Source: Granulicella sp. (GTDB lineage: Bacteria; Acidobacteriota; Terriglobia; Terriglobales; Acidobacteriaceae). Taken from it: a stretch of 64,000 nt of DNA. The DNA is taken from NCBI GenBank assembly GCA_027452215.1, contig DAIDGQ010000045.1, positions 1 to 64,000 on the forward strand, given 5' to 3'. The notes beneath the pieces were generated by a model that searched no databases, had not been told where the DNA came from, and was given only the letters and a program-made list of their open reading frames with translations. Shown one piece after another: positions 3,645-32,700 of the stretch. The first letter of the stretch is position 1. Each line of letters opens with the position of its first letter. Made by a program: the position numbers and the translations under genes.

Positions 3645-3675
3645 CTAATCCCTAATCCCTGTCCCCTAATCCCTG
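3645..3675 (-). repeat. 31-nt intercistronic GGGATTA-type repeat
   Basis: On the minus strand this reads as tandem GGGATTA units (AGGGATTAGGGATTAG core). It fills the gap between the epimerase stop and dut. The end nearest dut merges into the AGGAG that serves as the dut Shine-Dalgarno. Near-identical copies occur at 9524-9554 and 17662-17692, with a shorter copy at 27923-27946. Confidence 0.85.
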
Positions 3676-3678
3676 CTT

Positions 3679-4740
3679 CTAAGACATCCACTTCAACAAC
3701 CGAATAATCCCCATTGGCGCCGCCTTCGAATGTGCCGACACATCCGTCCGCGCATGAATCGCTCTCCGGTTCTCGCTGTAGTACGAAAACGCGCGCAGCA
3801 TCATCTCCTCATTCGTCAGCGTCGGCCTCCATCCCAGCTCCTCACGAATCCTCCGCGTATCAAATACAAAACTCTCCGCAATCATCCGGTAGTGATACGG
3901 CCCCAGCGGTGACACTCCCATCCTATGCGCCAACTGCATCAGTGCCACCGTCATCCTGCGCGGCAGCGAAGCCACCCGCGACTTACTCCCTGCCGCCCGA
4001 ATCACACCTTCATACATCGTCCGCATCGTCGGCACTTCATCAGAACCAATATGAAATAAATTCGACTCCTCATACTTCAAACAAAGCAAGCAAGCCGTAG
4101 CCAGATCCTGCGCATAAATAAATTGGTAGCGGCTTGACCCATCCCCTACCACCCAAACTTTTTTCCCATCCTCAATAAACTCAAACAGGATCGCCAGCAG
4201 TCCCAACCGCCCGCTATCAATAATCGTCGGACACCGCAGGGTCACCACGCGCAACTCCGGATGCTTCTCCCGCAACAACTCCAACTCGCGCTCACCCTGC
4301 AGCTTCGATCGCCCATACAACTCCACCGGCGCCGGGACATCCTCCTCCGTCACCGGCCTCCCAAACCCTTCGGCCCACAGACAGTTCGACGAAATATTCA
4401 CCAACCGCGTAACCCCCGCGGCCACCGCGGCCTCTGCCACCAACCGCGTGCCATCCACATTGCTGGTCCACAGCAATGTTTCATCCTTCACGTCATGTGC
4501 CAACATCGCGGCGCAATGAAACACCGCCTCAAACTTGTGCTCTGCAAACGTCTTTGCCAGCAGCGTCGTATCCCGAATATCTCCCTGGATACTCGTCAGC
4601 GCTGGATCCCCATCTTCGTCCCGCACCAAATCAATATTCGTCACGGCGAACCCCTCCGCCAGCAGCCGACGTTTCAACACGCCGCCAAAAAATCCCGACG
4701 CTCCTGTCACCAAAACTTCACGCCTCTGCATCGCCTGCAC
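3679..4740 (-). CDS. NAD-dependent epimerase/dehydratase (extended SDR)
   Basis: A 353-residue extended short-chain dehydrogenase. The N-terminal Rossmann glycine motif is GASGFFGG, an acidic dinucleotide-binding region follows (NIDLVRDEDGD), and the catalytic Tyr-Lys pair lies in LYGRSKLQGE after the serine stretch VNISSNC. This fits nucleotide-sugar or steroid-type epimerases and dehydratases; the substrate cannot be read from sequence. The track start is a GTG at 4740; an ATG three codons in (4731) is an alternative. Only 6 bp separate it from the upstream glycosyltransferase stop, and that junction is itself a tandem repeat (4739-4769). The context suggests a role in envelope glycan or glycolipid synthesis. 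Confidence 0.85.
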   Translation of the reverse strand: MQAMQRREVLVTGASGFFGGVLKRRLLAEGFAVTNIDLVRDEDGDPALTSIQGDIRDTTLLAKTFAEHKFEAVFHCAAMLAHDVKDETLLWTSNVDGTRLVAEAAVAAGVTRLVNISSNCLWAEGFGRPVTEEDVPAPVELYGRSKLQGERELELLREKHPELRVVTLRCPTIIDSGRLGLLAILFEFIEDGKKVWVVGDGSSRYQFIYAQDLATACLLCLKYEESNLFHIGSDEVPTMRTMYEGVIRAAGSKSRVASLPRRMTVALMQLAHRMGVSPLGPYHYRMIAESFVFDTRRIREELGWRPTLTNEEMMLRAFSYYSENRRAIHARTDVSAHSKAAPMGIIRLLKWMS

Positions 4741-4769
4741 TATCCTCTACCCTCTATCCTCTACCCTCT
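4739..4769 (-). repeat. Variant intercistronic tandem repeat (AGGGTAGAGGATAG x2)
   Basis: Two tandem 14-mers, AGGGTAGAGGATAG on the minus strand, span the last codons and TAG stop of the glycosyltransferase and run up to the GTG of the epimerase, placing GAGG next to that start. The length and position match the GGGATTA-type repeats although the unit differs. Confidence 0.7.
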
Positions 4770-6105
4770 GCGTTTCTGCAGACCGGAAAAGCACCACGGC
4801 GAGCACCGCAATCAGCGGCTCCATCGGGTGCCGAAACCGCGGCTGAACCGTCACCAGATAGTACGGCAACGGCAGCAGCAAAAAGATCAGCACAAACAAC
4901 CCTGCACCCTCCACACGCCTCCGTACCATCAGCGCAAGCCCAAGCAACCCGCACGCACTCAAAAAGCAATAGCTCAACTGCCGCAAATACTCCTGCACCG
5001 GCTTCCCATTCGCTGGATGCGGCGTCCCATCCCAGAAAAACAGAAACCGGTCCAGTGTCCACTTCGCAGTCTTCCACGGCCGCGCGCTAATCCGTTCCTT
5101 AGCCTGATCGCCGCGCATCTTCGCAAACCTCACCTCACCCATCCGAACAAACTCCTTGAACTCCGGATCGCCCGTCCACAGCGGCAAGGTCGTCCCCCAA
5201 GGAAACCCGTCGTTCCGGTCCAGCGTTGACTCATATAGCTCCACTCCAAAGTTATCCCGCGTCGGCACAAACGCATGCAGCACGCGCTCATTCCGAATCA
5301 CCCACGGAGCCAACACCACGGCAAACATCACGCACGTCAACGCCGCTCCCACTAACGTCGGCAACGAAATCCGCCACTGCCGCAACTCCGGCCACGCCAC
5401 CCAAACCATCATCCCCGGCAAGCACAACAGCAGCGAAGCATTCGACAGCGCAATCAACCCCCACGACATTCCCAGCGCCGCCCACAAAATCCACGCTCTA
5501 CCTGATCCCTCGTCCCTAATCCCTGATCCCTGCGTCTCCGCCCTCATCCGCAACGCCACCACCATCGCCCACGAAAACAAACACACCGTCAGCGACATCT
5601 CCCAGATCCAATGCACCGCATACTGCAGCGCCGCCGGATACACCGCCCACATCCAAGCCGACCACACCGCCACCGGAGCCCCATACGTCGCTCCCCTCCG
5701 AGCAATCCCACGAGCATCAAAACACCGCTCCGCAATCTCATACACCGCCGGCACCACCGCCGCCGACAACGCGCTATCCACCACCAGCAGTGCCAGCGCC
5801 GCGCCCCGCGAGTACACCCCAAACACCCTAAACGCCGCCGCCATCAGCAGCGGGTACAGCGGTGGCAACCACGCCGTCGGCCCCGACACCCCATTGAAAG
5901 GATTCCCATACCCATGCCCCGTCGCCACCGACCGCGCAATCCGTCCCGCCTCAAATCCAAAATTAAAGTTCGCCTGGTCCGTCCGAACCCTGTACATATG
6001 CCCCACCAGGATCACCGCCACACGCAGCCCGAACGCCACCCAGAAAATCATCCACGGCGCTCTGTACCACCTCCCACCATCGCCAACCTCCAATCGTCTC
6101 TCCAC
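4747..6105 (-). CDS. Polytopic glycosyltransferase (GT39/ArnT-like)
   Basis: About 452 residues with many hydrophobic segments, resembling dolichyl-/polyprenyl-phosphate-sugar:acceptor glycosyltransferases. Seen: a first TM (WMIFWVAFGLRVAVILVG), an acidic/aromatic periplasmic loop (RTDQANFNFGFEAGRIARS), further TMs, and a periplasmic C-terminal part. I chose GTG 6105, which overlaps the upstream stop as TAGTG, with GAGGGAG about 9 nt before; the ORF-track start at 6240 lies deep in the upstream gene. The overlap implies translational coupling. The sequence TQGSGIRDEGSGR near residues 192-202 is coded by an in-frame copy of the GGGATTA repeat. The last residues (RVEDRG) are coded by the 4739-4769 repeat. 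Acceptor and sugar are unknown. Confidence 0.8.
   Translation of the reverse strand: MERRLEVGDGGRWYRAPWMIFWVAFGLRVAVILVGHMYRVRTDQANFNFGFEAGRIARSVATGHGYGNPFNGVSGPTAWLPPLYPLLMAAAFRVFGVYSRGAALALLVVDSALSAAVVPAVYEIAERCFDARGIARRGATYGAPVAVWSAWMWAVYPAALQYAVHWIWEMSLTVCLFSWAMVVALRMRAETQGSGIRDEGSGRAWILWAALGMSWGLIALSNASLLLCLPGMMVWVAWPELRQWRISLPTLVGAALTCVMFAVVLAPWVIRNERVLHAFVPTRDNFGVELYESTLDRNDGFPWGTTLPLWTGDPEFKEFVRMGEVRFAKMRGDQAKERISARPWKTAKWTLDRFLFFWDGTPHPANGKPVQEYLRQLSYCFLSACGLLGLALMVRRRVEGAGLFVLIFLLLPLPYYLVTVQPRFRHPMEPLIAVLAVVLFRSAETQRVEDRG
5501..5532 (-). repeat. GGGATTA-type repeat inside a coding sequence
   Basis: The minus strand reads CAGGGATCAGGGATTAGGG and continues in the same pattern. It is a degenerate copy of the intercistronic repeat, lying in frame in the glycosyltransferase gene, where it encodes a Gly/Ser/Asp-rich linker without a stop because one TTA has become TCA. 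Confidence 0.75.
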
Positions 6106-8857: not shown

Positions 8858-9514
8858 TCAGTCCTTGCTCTCCAGCGGCCAACTCAGCCGCTCAATCGAA
8901 AATGTATCCCGCGTCGTGCAGTACCCTCCCCCGCCATGCATTCTCCCAATCAGCCTTAGCTGCGACGGGTCAATATGCAGCCGCTCCAGATCCTCAAACG
9001 CATTCGCCCGCACGTGCACATACACCACCTTCGCCAGCACAATCGTGCTTGACCCGCCCGGCTCAATCACCTGGTACAGCCTGCACTCCAGCGCCACCGG
9101 CGACCGCTCGATCCGCGGCACATCCACCACCGCGCACTTCGCCAGCTTCAGCCCCGCCAACCGCGTCTCGTCGGTTCCCCGGGGAGCATTCGTAGCCGTC
9201 ACATTCATCGCCTCGGCCAGGTCCTCCGGCACCAGGTTCACCACAAACTCTCCATGCTCACGAATATTAGTGAGTGTGTCTTTCTTCTCCCGATCCGGAG
9301 CCTTCGAAAACCCAATCGCCACCAGCGGAGGGTCCGCCGAAAGAATATTGAAGAACGAAAACGGTGCCGCATTCACCCCGCCCGCCTCATCCTTCGACAC
9401 CACCCACGCAATCGGCCGCGGCAAAATCACCGACGCCAGCAGCTTATACGTATCCGGCTTCGACATCGCCGCCAGTTCAAAGTGCGCAAACCCATCCAAC
9501 CCAGCCTCAAACAT
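8858..9514 (-). CDS. Flavin reductase-like FMN-binding protein
   Basis: 218 residues matching the flavin-reductase-like split-barrel family: PRPIAWVVSKDEAGGVNAAPFSFFN near the N-terminus (FMN-binding region) and GEFVVNLVPEDLAEAMN further in. Such proteins bind FMN and often reduce flavin with NAD(P)H for a partner monooxygenase; no partner is visible here. ATG 9514 is supported by AGGAG six nt upstream, which is formed where the GGGATTA repeat ends. It lies 16 bp after the MBL-fold gene, so the two are probably cotranscribed. Confidence 0.85.
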   Translation of the reverse strand: MFEAGLDGFAHFELAAMSKPDTYKLLASVILPRPIAWVVSKDEAGGVNAAPFSFFNILSADPPLVAIGFSKAPDREKKDTLTNIREHGEFVVNLVPEDLAEAMNVTATNAPRGTDETRLAGLKLAKCAVVDVPRIERSPVALECRLYQVIEPGGSSTIVLAKVVYVHVRANAFEDLERLHIDPSQLRLIGRMHGGGGYCTTRDTFSIERLSWPLESKD

Positions 9515-9523
9515 CTCGATCTC

Positions 9524-9554
9524 CTAATCCCTAATCCCTGTTCCCTAATCCCTG
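9524..9554 (-). repeat. 31-nt intercistronic GGGATTA-type repeat
   Basis: Nearly identical to 3645-3675 and 17662-17692. It provides the last codons (QGLGNRD) and the TAG stop (9531-9533) of the upstream MBL-fold gene and abuts the AGGAG of the downstream flavin reductase gene. Confidence 0.85.
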
Positions 9555-10514
9555 CAGTACAGGCTTATCCTTCTCATTCCACTCCACCAACGCCGCCGGG
9601 ACCTGGTGATCATGCGGAAACAGCACCAGCCACCGCTCCGGAATCGCCCTCGCCAGAAACCTCTTCCTCTGCTCAATGCAAGTCAGCGGATACAGGTCAT
9701 AGCCCATCACCCACGTCGGGTCCAGATGATTGTGCGTAGGAAACAAATCCCCGATATAGCAAGCCCGCTCCGTCGCTCCCCCATGCGACCGCGCCTCGAG
9801 ATGCACCCCCAGCATCGTCGCCGTATGTCCCGGAAACTCCTCCACCCACACCCCCGGCGCAATCTCCATACTCGTCTCAATCCGCACCGGCGGCAAAATA
9901 TCCGGCCCCCGCAAACGCTCATCTTCAGCCGTGAACCCGCCCTTGCCCCCCGGATCGATCAGCGTCAGCTGCCCGTTCGCAATCAGAGGATCATAGTTCG
10001 GAGCCAGATAGCTCACCCGGTCGCGTTCCAACTGCAGCCGCCCATGCTCCAACTCTCCCGCCGCGGCAAAATATCGCGCGTTCGGAAACGTAGGCCGCAC
10101 CACCCCATCCTCTCCCAGCGTCGTATTCCACCCGCAATGATCGAAGTGGAGATGCGTATTCACTACATGCGTCACCTCTTCCGCACGCACGCCCGCAGCC
10201 GCCAGAGAAGCCGGAAGCCGCTCCTCATTCTGAAAGATCTCGCGCATCTTCGCTGTCAGTTTGTTCCCAATCCCGGTCTCAATCAGCACCACCGCCGACC
10301 CGGTCCGCACCACCACCGTATTCAGCCCCAGCAAAATCCGGTTTTCCTCGTCCGCAGGCGCCCGCTTCTCCCACATCGGCTTCGGCACAACGCCAAACAT
10401 CGCTCCGCCGTCGAGCAGAAAGCTCCCATCGCTGCACACCGTCAGCTCAAGATCGCCCAGCGCCCGCCGCGCTCGCACAAGTTCCCCATCACTCTTCGTG
10501 TACGCCGGATGCAT
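9531..10514 (-). CDS. MBL-fold metallo-hydrolase
   Basis: 327 residues of the metallo-beta-lactamase fold: the zinc motif THLHFDHCG (HxHxDH), a further metal-ligand His in EEFPGHTATM, the Asp of YIGDLFPTHNH and a C-terminal FPHDHQ. It resembles the AHL-lactonase/quinoprotein-relay-like hydrolases; the true substrate is unknown. I chose ATG 10514, which has TACACT exactly 6 nt upstream (leaderless arrangement); the track start at 10565 is a TTG. The last seven residues are coded by the intercistronic repeat, so the C-terminus has probably been altered by repeat insertion. Likely operon with the flavin reductase gene downstream. Confidence 0.85.
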   Translation of the reverse strand: MHPAYTKSDGELVRARRALGDLELTVCSDGSFLLDGGAMFGVVPKPMWEKRAPADEENRILLGLNTVVVRTGSAVVLIETGIGNKLTAKMREIFQNEERLPASLAAAGVRAEEVTHVVNTHLHFDHCGWNTTLGEDGVVRPTFPNARYFAAAGELEHGRLQLERDRVSYLAPNYDPLIANGQLTLIDPGGKGGFTAEDERLRGPDILPPVRIETSMEIAPGVWVEEFPGHTATMLGVHLEARSHGGATERACYIGDLFPTHNHLDPTWVMGYDLYPLTCIEQRKRFLARAIPERWLVLFPHDHQVPAALVEWNEKDKPVLQGLGNRD

Positions 10515-16654: not shown

Positions 16655-16987
16655 CTAAGCATCATTCCGACGCATCGCCAGCCACGTCGCCACCCCTGCC
16701 AGCTCAGCCAGCATCAGCATCTCCAAATCGAACGTCAGGCTCGCAAAGCTAGGCTGCGTATGCGGAGCCACCCAGCACAGCCCTACAATCAGCCCCGCCA
16801 CCGCCGCCGTCGCGGCAATCCTCCCCACACTCCACCGAGCCCGCACCTGCGGCCGCGCCGGCAGCGAAGCCCGCACCCGGGCAGCAAAGTCCTCCGGCAC
16901 CACCACCGCCGGCTGCCGCTCCAGCGCCAGTGTAATCGCCTCCTCCATCGCCAAATCATCCTTCATCTCATCACCCCTGTTCGTCAT
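16655..16987 (-). CDS. Putative membrane anti-sigma factor
   Basis: 110 residues. The first 50 are soluble and acidic/basic mixed (MKDDLAMEEAITLALERQPAVVVPEDFAARVRASLP), followed by a TM (IAATAAVAGLIVGLCWVA) and a second hydrophobic stretch (LMLAELAGVATWLA). There is no zinc HxxxCxxC motif, so it is not a classical ZAS anti-sigma. The ATGA overlap with the ECF sigma gene and the size make an anti-sigma role likely, but this is by position. ATG at residue 8 is an alternative start. Confidence 0.6.
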   Translation of the reverse strand: MTNRGDEMKDDLAMEEAITLALERQPAVVVPEDFAARVRASLPARPQVRARWSVGRIAATAAVAGLIVGLCWVAPHTQPSFASLTFDLEMLMLAELAGVATWLAMRRNDA

Positions 16988-17646
16988 AAGCCACCCACAG
17001 CCACCTGCCGTCTCGAAGCCACATCAATCTCTCGACTCTCTTCCGCTCTCGGCACCGTCTCGCTCTTCACTCTCGCCGCCCGTGAAGGACCGCGCAGCGC
17101 CTCCGATAGCCGTTTGCGGCCGCGATGCAGATGCGTCCTCACCGTATTGATCGGCAAGCCCAGCGCCGCCGCAATGCCCTCATAGCTGCACTCCTCCTGA
17201 TGGTAGAGCACCAGCACCGTTCGCTCCATCTCCGGCAGCGAGGCCATCGCGGCTTCCACCGCAGCCTGCACCTCCGCATCGCCCATCAGCTGCTCCGGGT
17301 TCCGGGCATGCTCCTGCAGCTCATCCCCACGAAGGCTCTCAATCCAACCAGCCTCCGCGTCTTCCTCCACCGCCGCCGGTCCAGCGGCAATCACCGCTCG
17401 CTCCTTGCGTCGCCGCTTCCACTCATCCTGAGCCACATTCACCACAATCCGATACAGATACGTCGACAAAGCCGACTCCCCACGAAACTCCGGCAGCGCC
17501 CTGTACAGCCGCAGAAACACCTCCTGCGCCATATCCTCCACCTGCGGTCCCGACCCCGTCAGTCGCGTGAGCGTACGAAACACCAACCCCTGATGCTCCC
17601 GCACCAGCGCCTCAAACCTCTCCGGCGATGTCAGATCACCGCGCAT
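16984..17646 (-). CDS. ECF RNA polymerase sigma factor
   Basis: 220 residues. Region 2 (FEALVREHQGLVFRTLTRLTG, then DMAQEVFLRLYRALPEFRG, with the -10-binding segment STYLYRIVVNVAQDEWKRRRK) and region 4 (SLPEMERTVLVLYHQEECSYEGIAAALGLPINTVRTHLHRGRKRL) are both complete, typical of ECF sigma factors that switch on an envelope or stress regulon. The 40 residues after region 4 are basic and of unclear role. The stop overlaps the putative anti-sigma gene by ATGA, indicating translational coupling. Upstream lies a full 31-nt GGGATTA repeat instead of an obvious autoregulated promoter. Confidence 0.92.
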   Translation of the reverse strand: MRGDLTSPERFEALVREHQGLVFRTLTRLTGSGPQVEDMAQEVFLRLYRALPEFRGESALSTYLYRIVVNVAQDEWKRRRKERAVIAAGPAAVEEDAEAGWIESLRGDELQEHARNPEQLMGDAEVQAAVEAAMASLPEMERTVLVLYHQEECSYEGIAAALGLPINTVRTHLHRGRKRLSEALRGPSRAARVKSETVPRAEESREIDVASRRQVAVGGL

Positions 17647-17661
17647 CCCGCCCTTGCCCTT

Positions 17662-17692
17662 CTAATCCCTAATCCCTGTTCCCTAATCCCTG
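17662..17692 (-). repeat. 31-nt GGGATTA-type repeat upstream of the ECF sigma gene
   Basis: Same sequence as 9524-9554. Here no co-directional gene lies upstream (the next gene is divergent), so this copy would fall in the 5' UTR or promoter region of the sigma factor gene. Confidence 0.85.
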
Positions 17693-17828
17693 TTCTTCTG
17701 CCCCTCAGACTTCATCCTCCTCCAAAAGTTTCACAAGCGCACCTGAAACTTTCGCCCGCCCTCTCAGTCGAAGCCCCACAGAAACCATCGCTGCCAGCGC
17801 CACCCGCCGCAGCCTCAAGGAGATCACC

Positions 17829-25469: not shown

Positions 25470-25800
25470 CGCGTCATCTCGACCGAAGCCAATCAGTCCC
25501 CTCGTTTGGCGCAGCCGAGAGACCCCTGTATTTGCCATTGCAGTTGCAGTTGCAGTTGCAATTGCCCTTGCAGTTGCCTTTTGCTTTTGCTTTTGCTTTT
25601 GCTTTTGCTTTTGCTTTTGCTTTTGCTTTTGCTTTTGCTTTTGCCTTTGCCTTTGCCTTTGCCTTTGCCTTTGCCTTTGTCGTTGTAAGTCTTTCGCCGT
25701 CATCCTAGAGCGAAGCGAAGGACCCCCGCATTGGCCGTTGCCGTTGCTGTTGCCGTTGCTAGAAGCTAGAACCTAACAGCTAACAGCTAACAGCTAGCAC
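25470..25800 (+). repeat. Composite repeat module, copy A (with hexamer array)
   Basis: In order: a GACCGAAGCC element, GAGAGACCCCTGTATTTG, TTGCAG/TTTTGC/CTTTGC hexamers, GAGCGAAGCGAAGGACCCCC, CCGTTGC units and AGCTAACAGCTAAC repeats. The same order and orientation recur at 27148-27341. It fills the 421-bp gap between the GH89 and acetyltransferase-like genes. The ORFs called here (QRQRQRQ-type and LLLLLL-type) are repeat translations, not genes. Confidence 0.8.
25579..25680 (+). repeat. Hexanucleotide microsatellite (TTTTGC)11 (CTTTGC)5
   Basis: Eleven uninterrupted TTTTGC units (25579-25644), then five CTTTGC units and one CTTTGT. Upstream, TTGCAG-like units form a degenerate prelude from about 25533. 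A perfect array this long is expected to vary by slippage. Confidence 0.92.
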
Positions 25801-27147: not shown

Positions 27148-27341
27148 CGCATCAAGACCGAAGCCGCGCACCTTCATGCGCGGCGCAGCGGAGAGACCCC
27201 TGTATTTGCTTTTGCCGTTGCCCTTGCCCTTGCCCTTGCAAGTTTTTCGCCGTCATGCTGAGCGAAGCGAAGGACCCCCGCATCGGCTCTTGCCTTTGCC
27301 GTTGCTCTAGCTAGAAGCTAGAAGCTAAAAGCTAGCAGCTA
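27148..27341 (+). repeat. Composite repeat module, copy B
   Basis: Same order and orientation as copy A at 25470-25800, but the hexamer part is short (TTTTGCCGTTGCCCTTGC). Contains GAGAGACCCCTGTATTTG, GAGCGAAGCGAAGGACCCCC and AGAAGCTAGAAGCTAA. Together with copy A it brackets the acetyltransferase-like gene as direct repeats. The 27047-27375 gap holds nothing else. Confidence 0.8.
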
Positions 27342-27922: not shown

Positions 27923-27946
27923 CTAATCCCTAACCCCTAATCCCTG
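27923..27946 (-). repeat. Shorter intercistronic GGGATTA-type repeat
   Basis: Minus strand: CAGGGATTAGGGGTTAGGGA and on, between the TGA of the S10 peptidase (27949-27951) and the TTG start of the DUF4126 gene. Same orientation relative to genes as the other copies. Confidence 0.8.
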
Positions 27947-27948
27947 CC

Positions 27949-29532
27949 TCAATGCGTCTTCACCATCGCCTCTGCCAGCGAGTGCAATCCGTCCTCATTC
28001 CCCGCCCTGGTATAGAACATATGCCCTCCCGGAAACTCATGCACCGACACCTGCCCCGCCAGCTTTGCCGGAAGCTCATTCTGCGTCAGCACCGACCCCA
28101 TAAACGGGCACGACAAGTCATTCCATCCATGCACAATTAGCACATTCAGCTTAGGATCCGCCGCCACCGCCTCGCGAAGATCGCTCACCGCTCCCTGCCG
28201 CAGCGCCGGCCCCTGCCGGTCCCACAGCCTGCCCACGTCATACGACAGAGCATAGTACCGCGCCTCCGTCTTCCACCCCACCGTGTTCGTAATAAAGTTC
28301 ACCATCGCCGTCGTCGTCGGAGCAATAATGCTCTCTAAAATCGGGTCATTCGACTCCTGCTCCGGAGAGTAAGGAAATGGGTCCGGCAGCGTCACATTCG
28401 AGTCATACACCGATCCAATCTCGCCCTTCTCCCTGTGCACCTCCCGCAGGTACGCTCCCGTCTCCAGCCTCCCACCCGAGTACCGCACAAACATCGGGTC
28501 CAGCCCCGTCATCTCCGTCACCTTCGAGATCATCCCGTCCGTCGCCGCCTTATCCGCCGGCCCCTTGATCAGCGCCGTCGCATACTCTCCCTCCGTATAC
28601 CCAATCACGTCCCGCATCGCCGCGTCCGTCAGCTTCCCCTCCGCCTCCAGGTGCGCCGCCGTAATCGACGGCAGCGTAATCATCCACGGCACCGGAGACA
28701 GATTCCCATCTCCAAAACTCGGGTTCAGATAAGGACTCACCAGCACCACGCCATTCATCGCCACGCCAATCTGCGACTGCAGATAATGCGTCATCCTCGG
28801 AACCCGGTACCCTCCATAGCTCTCGCCCATCAGGTACTTCTTATCCAGCATCCGGTCATTCTTCACCAGCCACTTGTAGATCACCAGCGACAGGTACTGC
28901 ACATCCTCCGTCGGAGCATAAAACAGCTTCTTGGCCTCCGCCTCATCCACCAGAGCCTTCGAAAATCCCGTCCCGATCGGATCGATAAACACCTCATCGG
29001 TAAAGTCCAGCCACGTCCCCGGATTATCCGTCAGCGTCGCCGGATCGCTCGCCGAATCGCCCGCATTCGCAAACGAAATATGCTTCGGCCCCACCGCTCC
29101 CAGGTTCAAATACACACTCGAAGCCCCCGGCCCTCCATTCACCGCAAACATCACCGGCCGGTCTGCCTCCCCCTTCTCTTTATCGACGACGTAGGCCGTA
29201 TACATTACGTCGCCCGTCGGCTTGCCCATCGCATCCTTCAGATGGATCGTCCCCACCGTAGCCGTATAGTGCAGCGTCTTCCCATGCACCGTAATCGTCT
29301 GCGCAATCGACTTGTCCTCAGGCAATCCCGCAGGAGCAGTCTCCGCCTTCCCCGCCCCCTTCGCCTCGGGCTTGGCATCCCCCTTCGCCTCGCCACTCTT
29401 CGCCGCATCACTCTTCGCCGCATCGGCAGCAACGGCGGGCTTCTCTCCCCGCCCTCCACGCTGCGATAGCGCAGCCACAGGAACACTCAGCAACAAAAGG
29501 GCAGGAACAACACGTCGCAAGATCATACGCAT
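27949..29532 (-). CDS. Exported S10 serine carboxypeptidase-like protein
   Basis: 527 residues from ATG 29532, chosen because GGAGGT lies six nt upstream (the track start is 13 codons earlier). Signal peptide (ILRRVVPALLLLSVPVAALSQ), then an Ala/Lys/Glu-rich linker (about 31-65), then an alpha/beta-hydrolase with S10 landmarks: VNGGPGASS (oxyanion region), Ser238 in MGESYGG, Asp in IVHGWNDLSCPF and His in FPGGHMFY. These enzymes trim C-terminal residues from peptides, usually at acidic pH. A second S10 protein is encoded at 40686-42350. It likely supports breakdown of external peptides in the periplasm. Confidence 0.9.
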   Translation of the reverse strand: MRMILRRVVPALLLLSVPVAALSQRGGRGEKPAVAADAAKSDAAKSGEAKGDAKPEAKGAGKAETAPAGLPEDKSIAQTITVHGKTLHYTATVGTIHLKDAMGKPTGDVMYTAYVVDKEKGEADRPVMFAVNGGPGASSVYLNLGAVGPKHISFANAGDSASDPATLTDNPGTWLDFTDEVFIDPIGTGFSKALVDEAEAKKLFYAPTEDVQYLSLVIYKWLVKNDRMLDKKYLMGESYGGYRVPRMTHYLQSQIGVAMNGVVLVSPYLNPSFGDGNLSPVPWMITLPSITAAHLEAEGKLTDAAMRDVIGYTEGEYATALIKGPADKAATDGMISKVTEMTGLDPMFVRYSGGRLETGAYLREVHREKGEIGSVYDSNVTLPDPFPYSPEQESNDPILESIIAPTTTAMVNFITNTVGWKTEARYYALSYDVGRLWDRQGPALRQGAVSDLREAVAADPKLNVLIVHGWNDLSCPFMGSVLTQNELPAKLAGQVSVHEFPGGHMFYTRAGNEDGLHSLAEAMVKTH

Positions 29533-29735
29533 TACTCTACCTCCTGCACCCCTCCTCAAGCCATCCCACACCCCACCTTCGTCCTTCGCGCTTCAGTCCA
29601 TCACTGCCACGCTGTCTAGACCGAAGCTCTCCAGACCGAAGCGAAGTCCCGCAGCGAGTCGGCGCGCAAGTGGCCGCTGCTCCGGTCAAGCGTACGCTAC
29701 CACCGCCGAATTGAAGTGACCCACCAAGGAGCAGC
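29533..29735. other. Junction where strand composition reverses
   Basis: 203 bp between the S10 peptidase and Ig/NHL lipoprotein genes, no ORF. It holds paired AGACCGAAGC elements (about 29622-29650). Left of it the plus strand is C-rich whatever the gene direction (line 29401: 14 G, 29 C by hand); right of it G-rich (line 29821: 29 G, 10 C). I saw no DnaA-box cluster. Confidence 0.65.
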
Positions 29736-32700
29736 TTACGGGGCGGTGGGGACAGGCTGGAGTGGAGTGAGCGTCGGTGCAGCGAGGCCGAAGAACATGG
29801 TGATGGCGTAGACATTTTGATTGGAGACCCAAAGGTTGCCGGAGCGGTCGGGAGCGATGCTGAAGGGGGCGTTGAGGGAGGCGTCGAGACCGAAGCCCCC
29901 GACAGAGTAGACGCCAGTGGACGGAGACAGGGCGGTGGCGGAAGAGGCAGAGCTGTTCCCTGCGATCTCCGTGATAGAGGCAGAAGCAAAGTTGGTGAAC
30001 CAGGCGTTCTGGGCGGCGTCGACGGCAACCATCGCCGGATGGTTGATGCCACCCGTGACGACGTTCGTATAAAGAATGGTCCCGTCAGGCGCGATATCAG
30101 CAAAGGAACCCTCGCTGGACGAAGAGGACGATGAGGCGCCCCCCAGATAATCGGCTACCCAGACATTCCCCAGCGCATCGGTGGCAACACCGTTGGAGAG
30201 CTGGCAGCAGTTGGGATTGCTGAGGAGCTGGCCATTGGGGAAGGTCGGAGTGGGGGCGGAGATGTGAGCGACCGTATTGCCTCCCGGGAGCCAGAAGCCA
30301 TGCTGTGCGTCAATCGCAATAGCGACCGGAACCAGGGCGAGCCCCTGGCTGAGACCGAGATTGGCGGAGACGAGCGCGGCGGTTGGGGAGTAGACGGTGG
30401 CGGAGGGAGGGCCGGTGTTGACGATGAAGATGTTACCGTTCGTATCGGCGGCAACGGCGTCGGGAAAGTTGATGTTTGTGGTGTAGCCGGTGGGCTGGGG
30501 AGAGACGCCGATCTGGCTGGAGCGGGCGCCGTAGAACTCCACGACGTTGCCGCTGCCGCCTCCGCCGTAGCCATTCTGGTTCGTGATCCAGATGTTGTCG
30601 GAGGGGTCGATGGCGATTCCGTTTTCCTGAATGATCTCGGTGTGGTCGGTGGCACCATAGCCGGTGGCGCTGAGGGGAGTTCCCTGGGCGTTGAAGGCGG
30701 AGATCGGGCCAGCCTGATTGGCTACCCAGACGTTGTTAAGGCTGTCAACGGCAAGCGCGGTGGGGGAGGAAAGACCGCCTCCAGTAACGGTGAGAGACAT
30801 GGTCCAGTCGTTAGGGGACTGAAGTAGAGTGGTGGCGAAGGGTGGCGTCGCGGGGAGGGTGGCGAAGACGGCGGCGACGTTCTGGCCGGGGTGTTTGACG
30901 ATGTTGAGGGCGGCGGTGAAGACGTCGGAGGGTGCGGTGCCTCCTGACGGGGTGGCGGCGGTGAAGAGCGGGTTGCAGGTGGAGCCACTGGCTGAGGAGG
31001 CGCACGAGTTGAGCGCGTCAGCGAGGGCGTTGAGCTTGCCGGCTTCGATGGATAAGGTGGCGGGGAGGGTGGCGACGGTGCCGTTGGCGGGGTTGGCGAG
31101 GAGAGCGGCGTCGAGGAAGGCGTTGGTGATTCCGAGGATGTTGGTGGACGTGGCCCCGATGCTGGTGGCAGAGGAGGTGAAGGGGGAGAGCGCCCAGGCG
31201 GCGGCGGCGGTGGTGAGCTCGTTGAGGGTGAAGAAGGGGGTGGTGGCGAGGTTAGTGCAGGGGCCGACGGCGGCGACCAGGACGATCGCGGGGTTTCCGC
31301 TGGTGGAGGTGGTGGAGGTGCTTCCTCCGGTGGCGACGAGGTAGACCTGGTTGCTTCCGGAGGGGATGGGCTGGCCGGAGCTGCTCTGGCCGCAGGTGTA
31401 GTTTCCGGCGAGGTTGAACATGCCAATGGTATCGGTGACGACGGGGGCGACAAGCATGGGCGTGGCGGCAGAGCCGTTGCCGGTGCTACCGACTGTGTAG
31501 AGCTGGATGGTCGCGCCGGACACGGGCTGCTGACCGCTGAGGACCTGACCCTGGAAGACGACGGCGGTGACGGAGAGGGAGAGGGTGGCGGTGGCCTTGT
31601 TGCCGTTGGCGTCCGTGACCTGGACGGTGAACGGGACGGAGGACTCTCCGGCGGTGGGGGTTCCGGTGATGGCTCCGGCGGGAGTGAGGGTGAGGCCGAC
31701 GGCGCTGAGGCCAGTTCCGGAGGTGACAGTCCAGGTGTAGCCGGAGCCGCTGCCGCCCGTGGCGGCGAGGGTGGCGGTGTAGGGGGTTCCCTCAGTTCCG
31801 GAGGGAAGCGAGGTGGTGGTGACGGAGAGAGCGGGAACGATGGTGAGGGTGAGGCTGGCGGTGGCGGTGTCGTTCTGGGAGTCTGTGACCTGCACGGTGA
31901 AGGTGGCGGTTCCGGCGACGGGGGTGGCTGCGGAGAGGACTCCTGCGCTGGAGAGGGTGAGGCCGAGGGAGGAGAGGCTGGAGGCTCCGCTGGTGACGGC
32001 CCAGGTGTAGCCGGTTCCGCTGCCGGAGCTGGCGGTGAGGGTCTGCGAGTAGGCCGCTCCGACGATTCCGGGGGGAAGGCTGGCGGTGGTGATGGTGAGG
32101 ACGGGATAGAGGATGGTGAGGGAGAGGGTTGCGGAGGCCGTGTTTCCGGCGCCGTCGGTGACCTTGACGGTGAGCGGCGAGGAGGTCTCCTCGGTGGTGG
32201 GAGTGCCGGTGATGGCTCCTGCGGGTGAGAGGGTGAGGCCGACGGCGCTGAGGGCGGTTCCGGAGGTGACGCTCCAGGTGTAGCCGGAGCCGCTTCCTCC
32301 GGTTGCCGAGAGCGCGGAGGCGTAGGCGATTCCGACGGTGCCGTTGGGAAGCGTGGTGGTGGCAACGGTGAGGGCCGGATAGGCGATGGTGAGAGCGAGG
32401 GTGGCGGCGGCCTGGTCTCCGAAGCTGTCGGTGACGGTGACGGTGAAGCGGGAGGCGGTCTCGGCGGAGGTGGGGGTTCCGGCGATGGCTCCGGAGGGTG
32501 AGAGGGTGAGGCCCGCGGCGCTGAGAGCGGTCCCGGAGGTGACGGCCCAGGTGTAGCCGGTTCCCGTTCCTCCGGTGGCGGTGAGCGTGGTGGCATAGGA
32601 GGTTCCTACGGTGCCGGCGGGGAGGGTCGTCGCGGTAGTAATGGAGAGTTGGGGATAGACGACGGCGAGGGTGTAGGTGGCGCTGGAGGTGAGCGCGGGG

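Follow-up and report, generated by a model that had tools for sequence, protein, structure and literature searches.

Heptamer tandem arrays at gene junctions of a Granulicella genome and their unit dialects among congeners

Introduction

Filamentous cyanobacteria carry STRR heptamers, which are likewise dispersed heptamer tandem arrays and to which the arrays analysed here are likened by description. Two further heptamer systems were reported in 2015. Rehm et al. (2015, PMC4692102) described quadruplex-forming heptamers, GGGAATC and GGGGA(C/T)T, from Xanthomonas and Nostoc, to which they could assign no function; MacGregor (2015, PMC4679880) described TAACTGA intergenic direct repeats in marine Beggiatoaceae, Cyanobacteria and Bacteroidetes, which overlap ribosome-binding positions and carry stops in all forward frames. 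A literature search for heptanucleotide repeats in Acidobacteria, with a coverage that stopped short of subscription journals, found none.

Here we analyse the heptamer arrays of a 64-kb stretch of DNA (the window) from the soil acidobacterium Granulicella sp., family Acidobacteriaceae, which is part of contig C45 of a 2.53-Mb assembly that is 59% complete, together with 52 arrays counted over a larger part of this genome. In the features tested, the Granulicella arrays belong to the class of Rehm et al. (PMC4692102), with quadruplex formation as predicted by an energy model: they are G3-tract heptamers with imperfect, heterogeneous units and a peak at four units, they are over-represented in non-coding DNA and closer to the 5' neighbouring ORF, they lie on the sense strand after stops or on the antisense strand before starts, and they form convergent inverted pairs. 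They differ from those repeats in their unit, which in these Acidobacteriota is AGGGAWY with TAG in most units; in strand, which here is tied strongly to local GC skew but showed no leading- or lagging-strand preference in the data of Rehm et al.; and in conservation, since congeners here are often without the array, whereas 90% of the repeats of Rehm et al. lie between the same ORFs in two species (PMC4692102).

With TAACTGA (PMC4679880) they have in common that they are short heptamer arrays, mostly intergenic and patchy over distant lineages, with stop codons in the unit and, in some cases, an overlap with the end of the upstream ORF and with expected ribosome-binding positions. TAACTGA is nearly invariant and not G-rich, in contrast to the AGGGAWY units, and stands a few nucleotides from start codons, facing them, whereas the arrays here begin at ORF ends, often separated from the next gene by tens of bases. 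Only 7 of 52 arrays have a sense start within the 25 bp that follow, and where TAACTGA (PMC4679880) places stops in all three forward frames, the Granulicella 31-mer keeps one sense frame free of stops (GGG ATT AGG GAA CAG GGA TTA GGG ATT).

Results

The original prediction had placed copies of a 31-nt intercistronic repeat, all in the same orientation relative to the downstream gene, at 3645, 9524, 17662 and 27923 of the window. We found four heptamer arrays of AGGGATT and AGGGAAC units at exactly these coordinates, all with the minus strand as the G-rich strand and all upstream of a minus-strand gene. Their minus-strand pattern is (C)AGGGATT-AGGGAAC-AGGGATT-AGGGATT-AG, and the identical copies at 9524 and 17662 read CAGGGATTAGGGAACAGGGATTAGGGATTAG (four units, ATT-AAC-ATT-ATT). 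The copy at 3645..3675 (minus strand; four units, ATT-GAC-ATT-ATT) differs from these two by one base, GGGGAC replacing GGGAAC; it lies between an epimerase gene and a dUTPase gene, with the epimerase stop (3679-3681) 4 bp ahead of it, and congeners G163, G165, G168, G169 and G174 have no AGGGATT array at this junction. The copy at 9524..9554 (minus strand) occupies the junction of an MBL-fold gene (9531-10514; Pfam Lactamase_B at 4e-15) and a flavin-reductase gene (8858-9514), the orthologous junction in congeners holding other spacers and a native Shine-Dalgarno (SD) sequence. The copy at 27923..27946 (minus strand; CAGGGATTAGGGGTTAGGGATTAG) has three units, ATT-GTT-ATT, one fewer than the others, and begins 3 bp after the stop of an S10-peptidase-like (serine carboxypeptidase-like) gene (27949-29532); its other neighbour encodes a protein of unknown function. 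A further, diverged four-unit array (5502..5532, minus strand), missed by the original prediction, falls within the called ORF 4747-6051 at a site whose length varies among congeners. A scan of the window against Rfam returned no match.

The called start of an ECF sigma-factor gene (16984-17646) is 16 bp downstream of the array at 17662..17692 (minus strand), whose TAG closes a 10-codon frame begun at an upstream ATG. In 17646-17725 (minus strand) we observed a conserved SD and ATG (GGAGGAGGATGAAGTCTGAGG) upstream of the sigma gene; the frame from this ATG continues into the sigma gene in G175 and is interrupted by a stop here, where the stop is the TAG of the array, and in G180. Given that the leader frame is cut in this way, re-initiation at 17646 may be how translation of the sigma factor begins.

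The repeat was counted over 1.14 Mb of this genome, which is about half of the assembly and was partly picked for containing arrays, as were the pieces of congeners; genes were called with a simple purpose-written caller. Fifty-two arrays were found, compared with 1, 0 and 0 in three Markov shuffles, so that the copies are not due to chance. The shuffles were used in place of a reversed-sequence control, which is of no use for a heptamer that is almost unchanged when read in reverse; a control search with the backwards pattern suffers from the same flaw. The arrays are made up chiefly of AGGGATT (132 units), AGGGAAC (34) and AGGGATC (15), and the number of units per array peaks at four (three units in 5 arrays, four in 22, five in 15, six in 3, eight in 4, nine in 1 and ten in 2), the lower flank of this peak not being independent of the detection threshold, which restricts arrays of fewer than three units. 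A sequence-agnostic scan of the intergenic tandem repeats of this genome gave period 7 (with 14) as dominant, with 30 arrays; period 6 accounted for 13 arrays, and periods 2-5, 8, 10 and 11 were not represented.

Neither random placement nor an equal frequency far from gene junctions describes these arrays: 37 of the 52 lie at gene junctions, though coding sequence makes up 83% of the DNA (binomial p about 1e-17), and 15 lie within called ORFs. At the junctions the placement is also polar: the median distance to the nearest ORF boundary is 6 bp for the 5' end of the G-rich strand and 60 bp for the 3' end. The 5' end was the nearer to an ORF in 30 arrays and the 3' end in 7 (p=2e-4), a polarity that 20,000 trials of random placement in the same gaps did not match. 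Fourteen arrays begin 3-9 bp past a sense stop, seven enclose the stop, and in another seven an antisense gene starts 3-11 bp from the 5' end. Where two arrays on opposite strands are paired, the pairs are convergent (6) and never divergent (0); one such pair, at C9:24738-24809, lies between a stop codon and the start codon that follows, and is predicted to form a hairpin of -59 kcal/mol (z -9.5).

An in-frame array was also observed at 19306-19347 of L062, in a tyrosine recombinase gene (L062:18898-19923; Phage_integrase 6.8e-37), where it precedes the catalytic domain and is translated as a GLGIREQGLG linker.

The strand shared by the copies of the window follows from regional base composition. 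Over the 52 arrays, the G strand of the array is the locally G-rich strand in 43/52 cases and the strand of the nearest gene in 31/52, and outside the arrays AGGG exceeds CCCT on the G-rich strand by 4:1 (810 vs 202). For the 38 arrays on whole or nearly whole contigs, the absolute GC skew is at least 0.2 at 32, compared with 48% of background positions.

The skew itself is extreme in this genome and sawtooth in shape. In the window, GC skew at third codon positions is about -0.7 over the first 29.5 kb irrespective of gene strand, turns to +0.7 within about 200 bp (29532-29736) between two codirectional genes, and then falls to zero by about 58 kb and becomes negative. A sawtooth of this shape, with a sharp rise and a slow fall about every 100 kb, is seen on contigs C9, C12, C22, C27 and C45, with G and T enriched on the same strand, as if there were many replication origins. 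Skew is strong in congeners G163, G166, G168, G174, G175 and G180 and weak in G164, G116, G165 and G169. The sawtooth may stem from replication, rearrangement or assembly.

The repeat had been proposed to supply stop codons and, as an element that defines a junction at either end, to be able to adjust the coupling of genes. At 9524 the array does end the MBL gene, whose frame CAG GGA TTA GGG AAC AGG GAT TAG gives seven residues and the stop, and its far end merges with the AGGAG preceding the ATG at 9514. A simple possible reason for this merging is that the same site in the array-free congeners G163 and G175 has a native TTAGGAG, one step from the TTAGGGA of the repeat. Elsewhere in the window the supply of stops did not hold, none of the other copies containing a called gene's stop: those near 3645 and 27923 precede the array by 3-4 bp. 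Nor is a device acting on both ends supported as a general function of the arrays, since the stop is enclosed in 7/52 and the SD overlapped in 2/52, stop and AGGAG lying together within the array at 9524 and C22:168703, while the next gene at the 37 junction arrays is codirectional in 20 and opposite in 17. As judged from sequence, a coupling effect is possible at single junctions such as 9524.

We also considered that the heptamers might be kept for stops in all frames, and rejected this given the open sense frame of the 31-mer and a stop-free dialect: the AGGGAAC unit is free of stops in all frames of both strands, and some AGGGAAC arrays of other Acidobacteriota still begin 4 bp after a stop.

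TAG leads the stop codons of the 533 called genes of this genome that have free 3' flanks (TAG 240, TAA 161, TGA 132), which is unusual for a genome of 63% GC and could be connected with the skew or with the gene caller.

The full G3-N1-7 quadruplex motif is present in 39/52 arrays. For four units the energy model gives -8.4 kcal/mol with a quadruplex and 0 without, and a three-layer RNA quadruplex is predicted for the 9524 array, so that folding into RNA quadruplexes is possible for four-unit arrays. In the 27923 copy there are three G-tracts only, and no quadruplex is predicted for it. When quadruplexes were left out of the model, RNA folding of the single arrays of the window gave nothing beyond shuffles (z -0.35 to 1.26).

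A second heptamer, TAGCTTC/GAAGCTA, resides in the same genome. It is not G-rich and forms 19 arrays, against 0 in a shuffle, which are intergenic, show a 5' bias (14/18, p=0.03) and form convergent pairs too. In the window it lies at 25755-25796 and 27307-27341, and its arrays in this genome (G000) include C45:25755, C45:66915, C9:76714/76808, C22:173470 and C33:6220/6428, among others.

Congeners use yet other units: GGGAATA/GGGAGTA in G168, GGAARTA and TAGAGGR in G166, and TAGAGNN in G163, the dialects of G163 and G166 being without G3 tracts. With four congeners pooled (G163, G164, G166 and G168), the 5' end is the closer to an ORF in 26/31 arrays. In other Acidobacteriota the main unit is AGGGAAC (G031, G349) or AGGGATC (G241, G274). 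The 5' bias is not universal in this test, being weak or absent in G274 and in rumen records, whose gene calls are poor. Arrays are patchy in occurrence and differ in pattern, being found in 15/28 genomes of the genus, 8/150 of the family and 14/197 of the phylum.

At orthologous junctions of congeners the array is absent or the junction is differently filled. The junction at C9:24738 holds an inverted pair of GGAARTA arrays in G166, that at C20:16471 a GGGAATA array and a matching inverted copy in G168, and that at C20:9590 TTAGTGG in G174. Junctions were re-used by different dialects at 3/10 array sites and 1/25 other sites (Fisher p=0.06), a count that excludes G164, whose pieces had been chosen for arrays; this excess of different heptamers at orthologous array junctions is only suggestive.

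The exact 31-mer was also seen in distant phyla, in rumen Selenomonadaceae / Clostridiales (L037, L039, L041, L044) and in Phycisphaerales (L040), and some rumen genomes have up to 354 matches to three AGGGAWY units, along with other heptamers such as CTAGTTC and AGTGGCT. A further dispersed, low-complexity intergenic repeat (L058:8060-8402) consists of GCAAGN-like hexamers near 'GCAGATTCCCTGCGGGAATGACAG'-like hairpins, with copies in G163, G175, G174 and G166 and dozens of occurrences in congeners.

Discussion

Two features of the arrays bear on how they arose. The unit order ATT-AAC-ATT-ATT recurs in 11 arrays, whereas 1.8 are expected when units are shuffled among arrays, which argues that the arrays share ancestry or were copied whole, as opposed to having grown independently. 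In addition, 40/52 arrays have a C immediately before their first AGGG, with RRG ahead of it, and a similar RRGC precedes the arrays of other dialects; a general GCAG motif after stops is absent away from arrays, so that the RRGC flank goes with the arrays.

On balance we favour, as somewhat the more probable account, a lineage-specific heptamer family RRGC-(AGGGAWY)n, usually of 4-5 units, that spread by copying and slippage and is tolerated at gene junctions. Whole-array copying plus slippage of units, with loss and gain at junctions, would account for the spread, and the arrays would persist where they are least harmful, within the few free bases of a junction. The supply of a stop and the merging with AGGAG would then be consequences of the landing site, by-products of a unit that contains TAG and of the resemblance of TTAGGGA to the native TTAGGAG. 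With four G-tracts, an array could fold as an RNA quadruplex right behind a ribosome that is terminating; whatever this might do to expression, it cannot be why the arrays sit where they do, since heptamers incapable of such folding are placed similarly. The tolerance part of this account has its difficulties. Fifteen of the 52 arrays lie in called ORFs, so that tolerance extends beyond junctions, and the tight 3-6 bp offset and 5' polarity are not explained by tolerance alone.

It is conceivable, if unlikely, that the arrays are a selected element in which a quadruplex, of RNA or DNA, folds from four G-tracts directly behind the stop and affects transcript ends, pausing or ribosome traffic. 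The peak of unit number at four, the prevalence of the full motif and the predicted stabilization are consistent with such an element, as is the report for related repeats of circular dichroism (CD) evidence and of more transcript ends at their sites (Rehm et al., PMC4692102). Yet the same authors saw no regulatory role, the 27923 copy has three tracts, and the co-resident TAGCTTC and the GGAARTA and TAGAGGR of a congener, which are unable to form a three-layer quadruplex, have the same placement, TAGCTTC and GGAARTA also forming convergent pairs.

Unlikely, too, is a mobile repeat, copied or templated, whose 5' head is fixed and for which a dedicated enzyme or parent element writes species-specific heptamers into junctions. 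It would accommodate the shared unit order, the RRGC flank across dialects, the genome-wide nature and patchy occurrence of the dialects, the six convergent pairs against no divergent one, and the different heptamers at some orthologous junctions. Against it, no linked gene is known, target-site duplication was not evident at the sites read, junction re-use reaches only p=0.06, and the units could also be homogenised by slippage and gene conversion. An extension of this idea, which we regard as improbable, would unite bacterial heptamer arrays in one system, copied or templated, whose 5' head (RRGC-AG) is fixed and whose 7-nt body can be exchanged, with species writing their own dialect at gene junctions and overwriting sites already occupied; if it were true, period 7 and polarity would be the point, and not the quadruplex or the stop codon.

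That the array is a translational device, setting stop codon and ribosome-binding site to tune the coupling of neighbouring genes, matches 9524 and C22:168703 and recalls the translational role proposed for TAACTGA heptamers overlapping ribosome-binding positions (MacGregor 2015, PMC4679880), but is highly improbable given the few arrays that enclose a stop, overlap an SD or face a nearby sense start, the opposite downstream gene in 17/37, the existence of stop-free dialects, and a shared orientation in the window that GC skew accounts for.

Any effect of the arrays on transcription or translation is, throughout, a matter of inference. What is new is the species-specific dialects of the unit, sometimes at orthologous junctions, together with the shared 5' flank RRGC. 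Both papers of 2015 dealt with heptamers in single lineages and linked them to quadruplexes or to translation, whereas Granulicella has several sequence-unrelated heptamers of comparable architecture, both inside a single genome and from congener to congener. What they share (period 7, the 5' end at an ORF, convergent pairs) is thereby separable from what is sequence-specific (G-tracts, stop codons), and the question of why bacterial intergenic repeats favour 7 bp becomes testable in culturable relatives.
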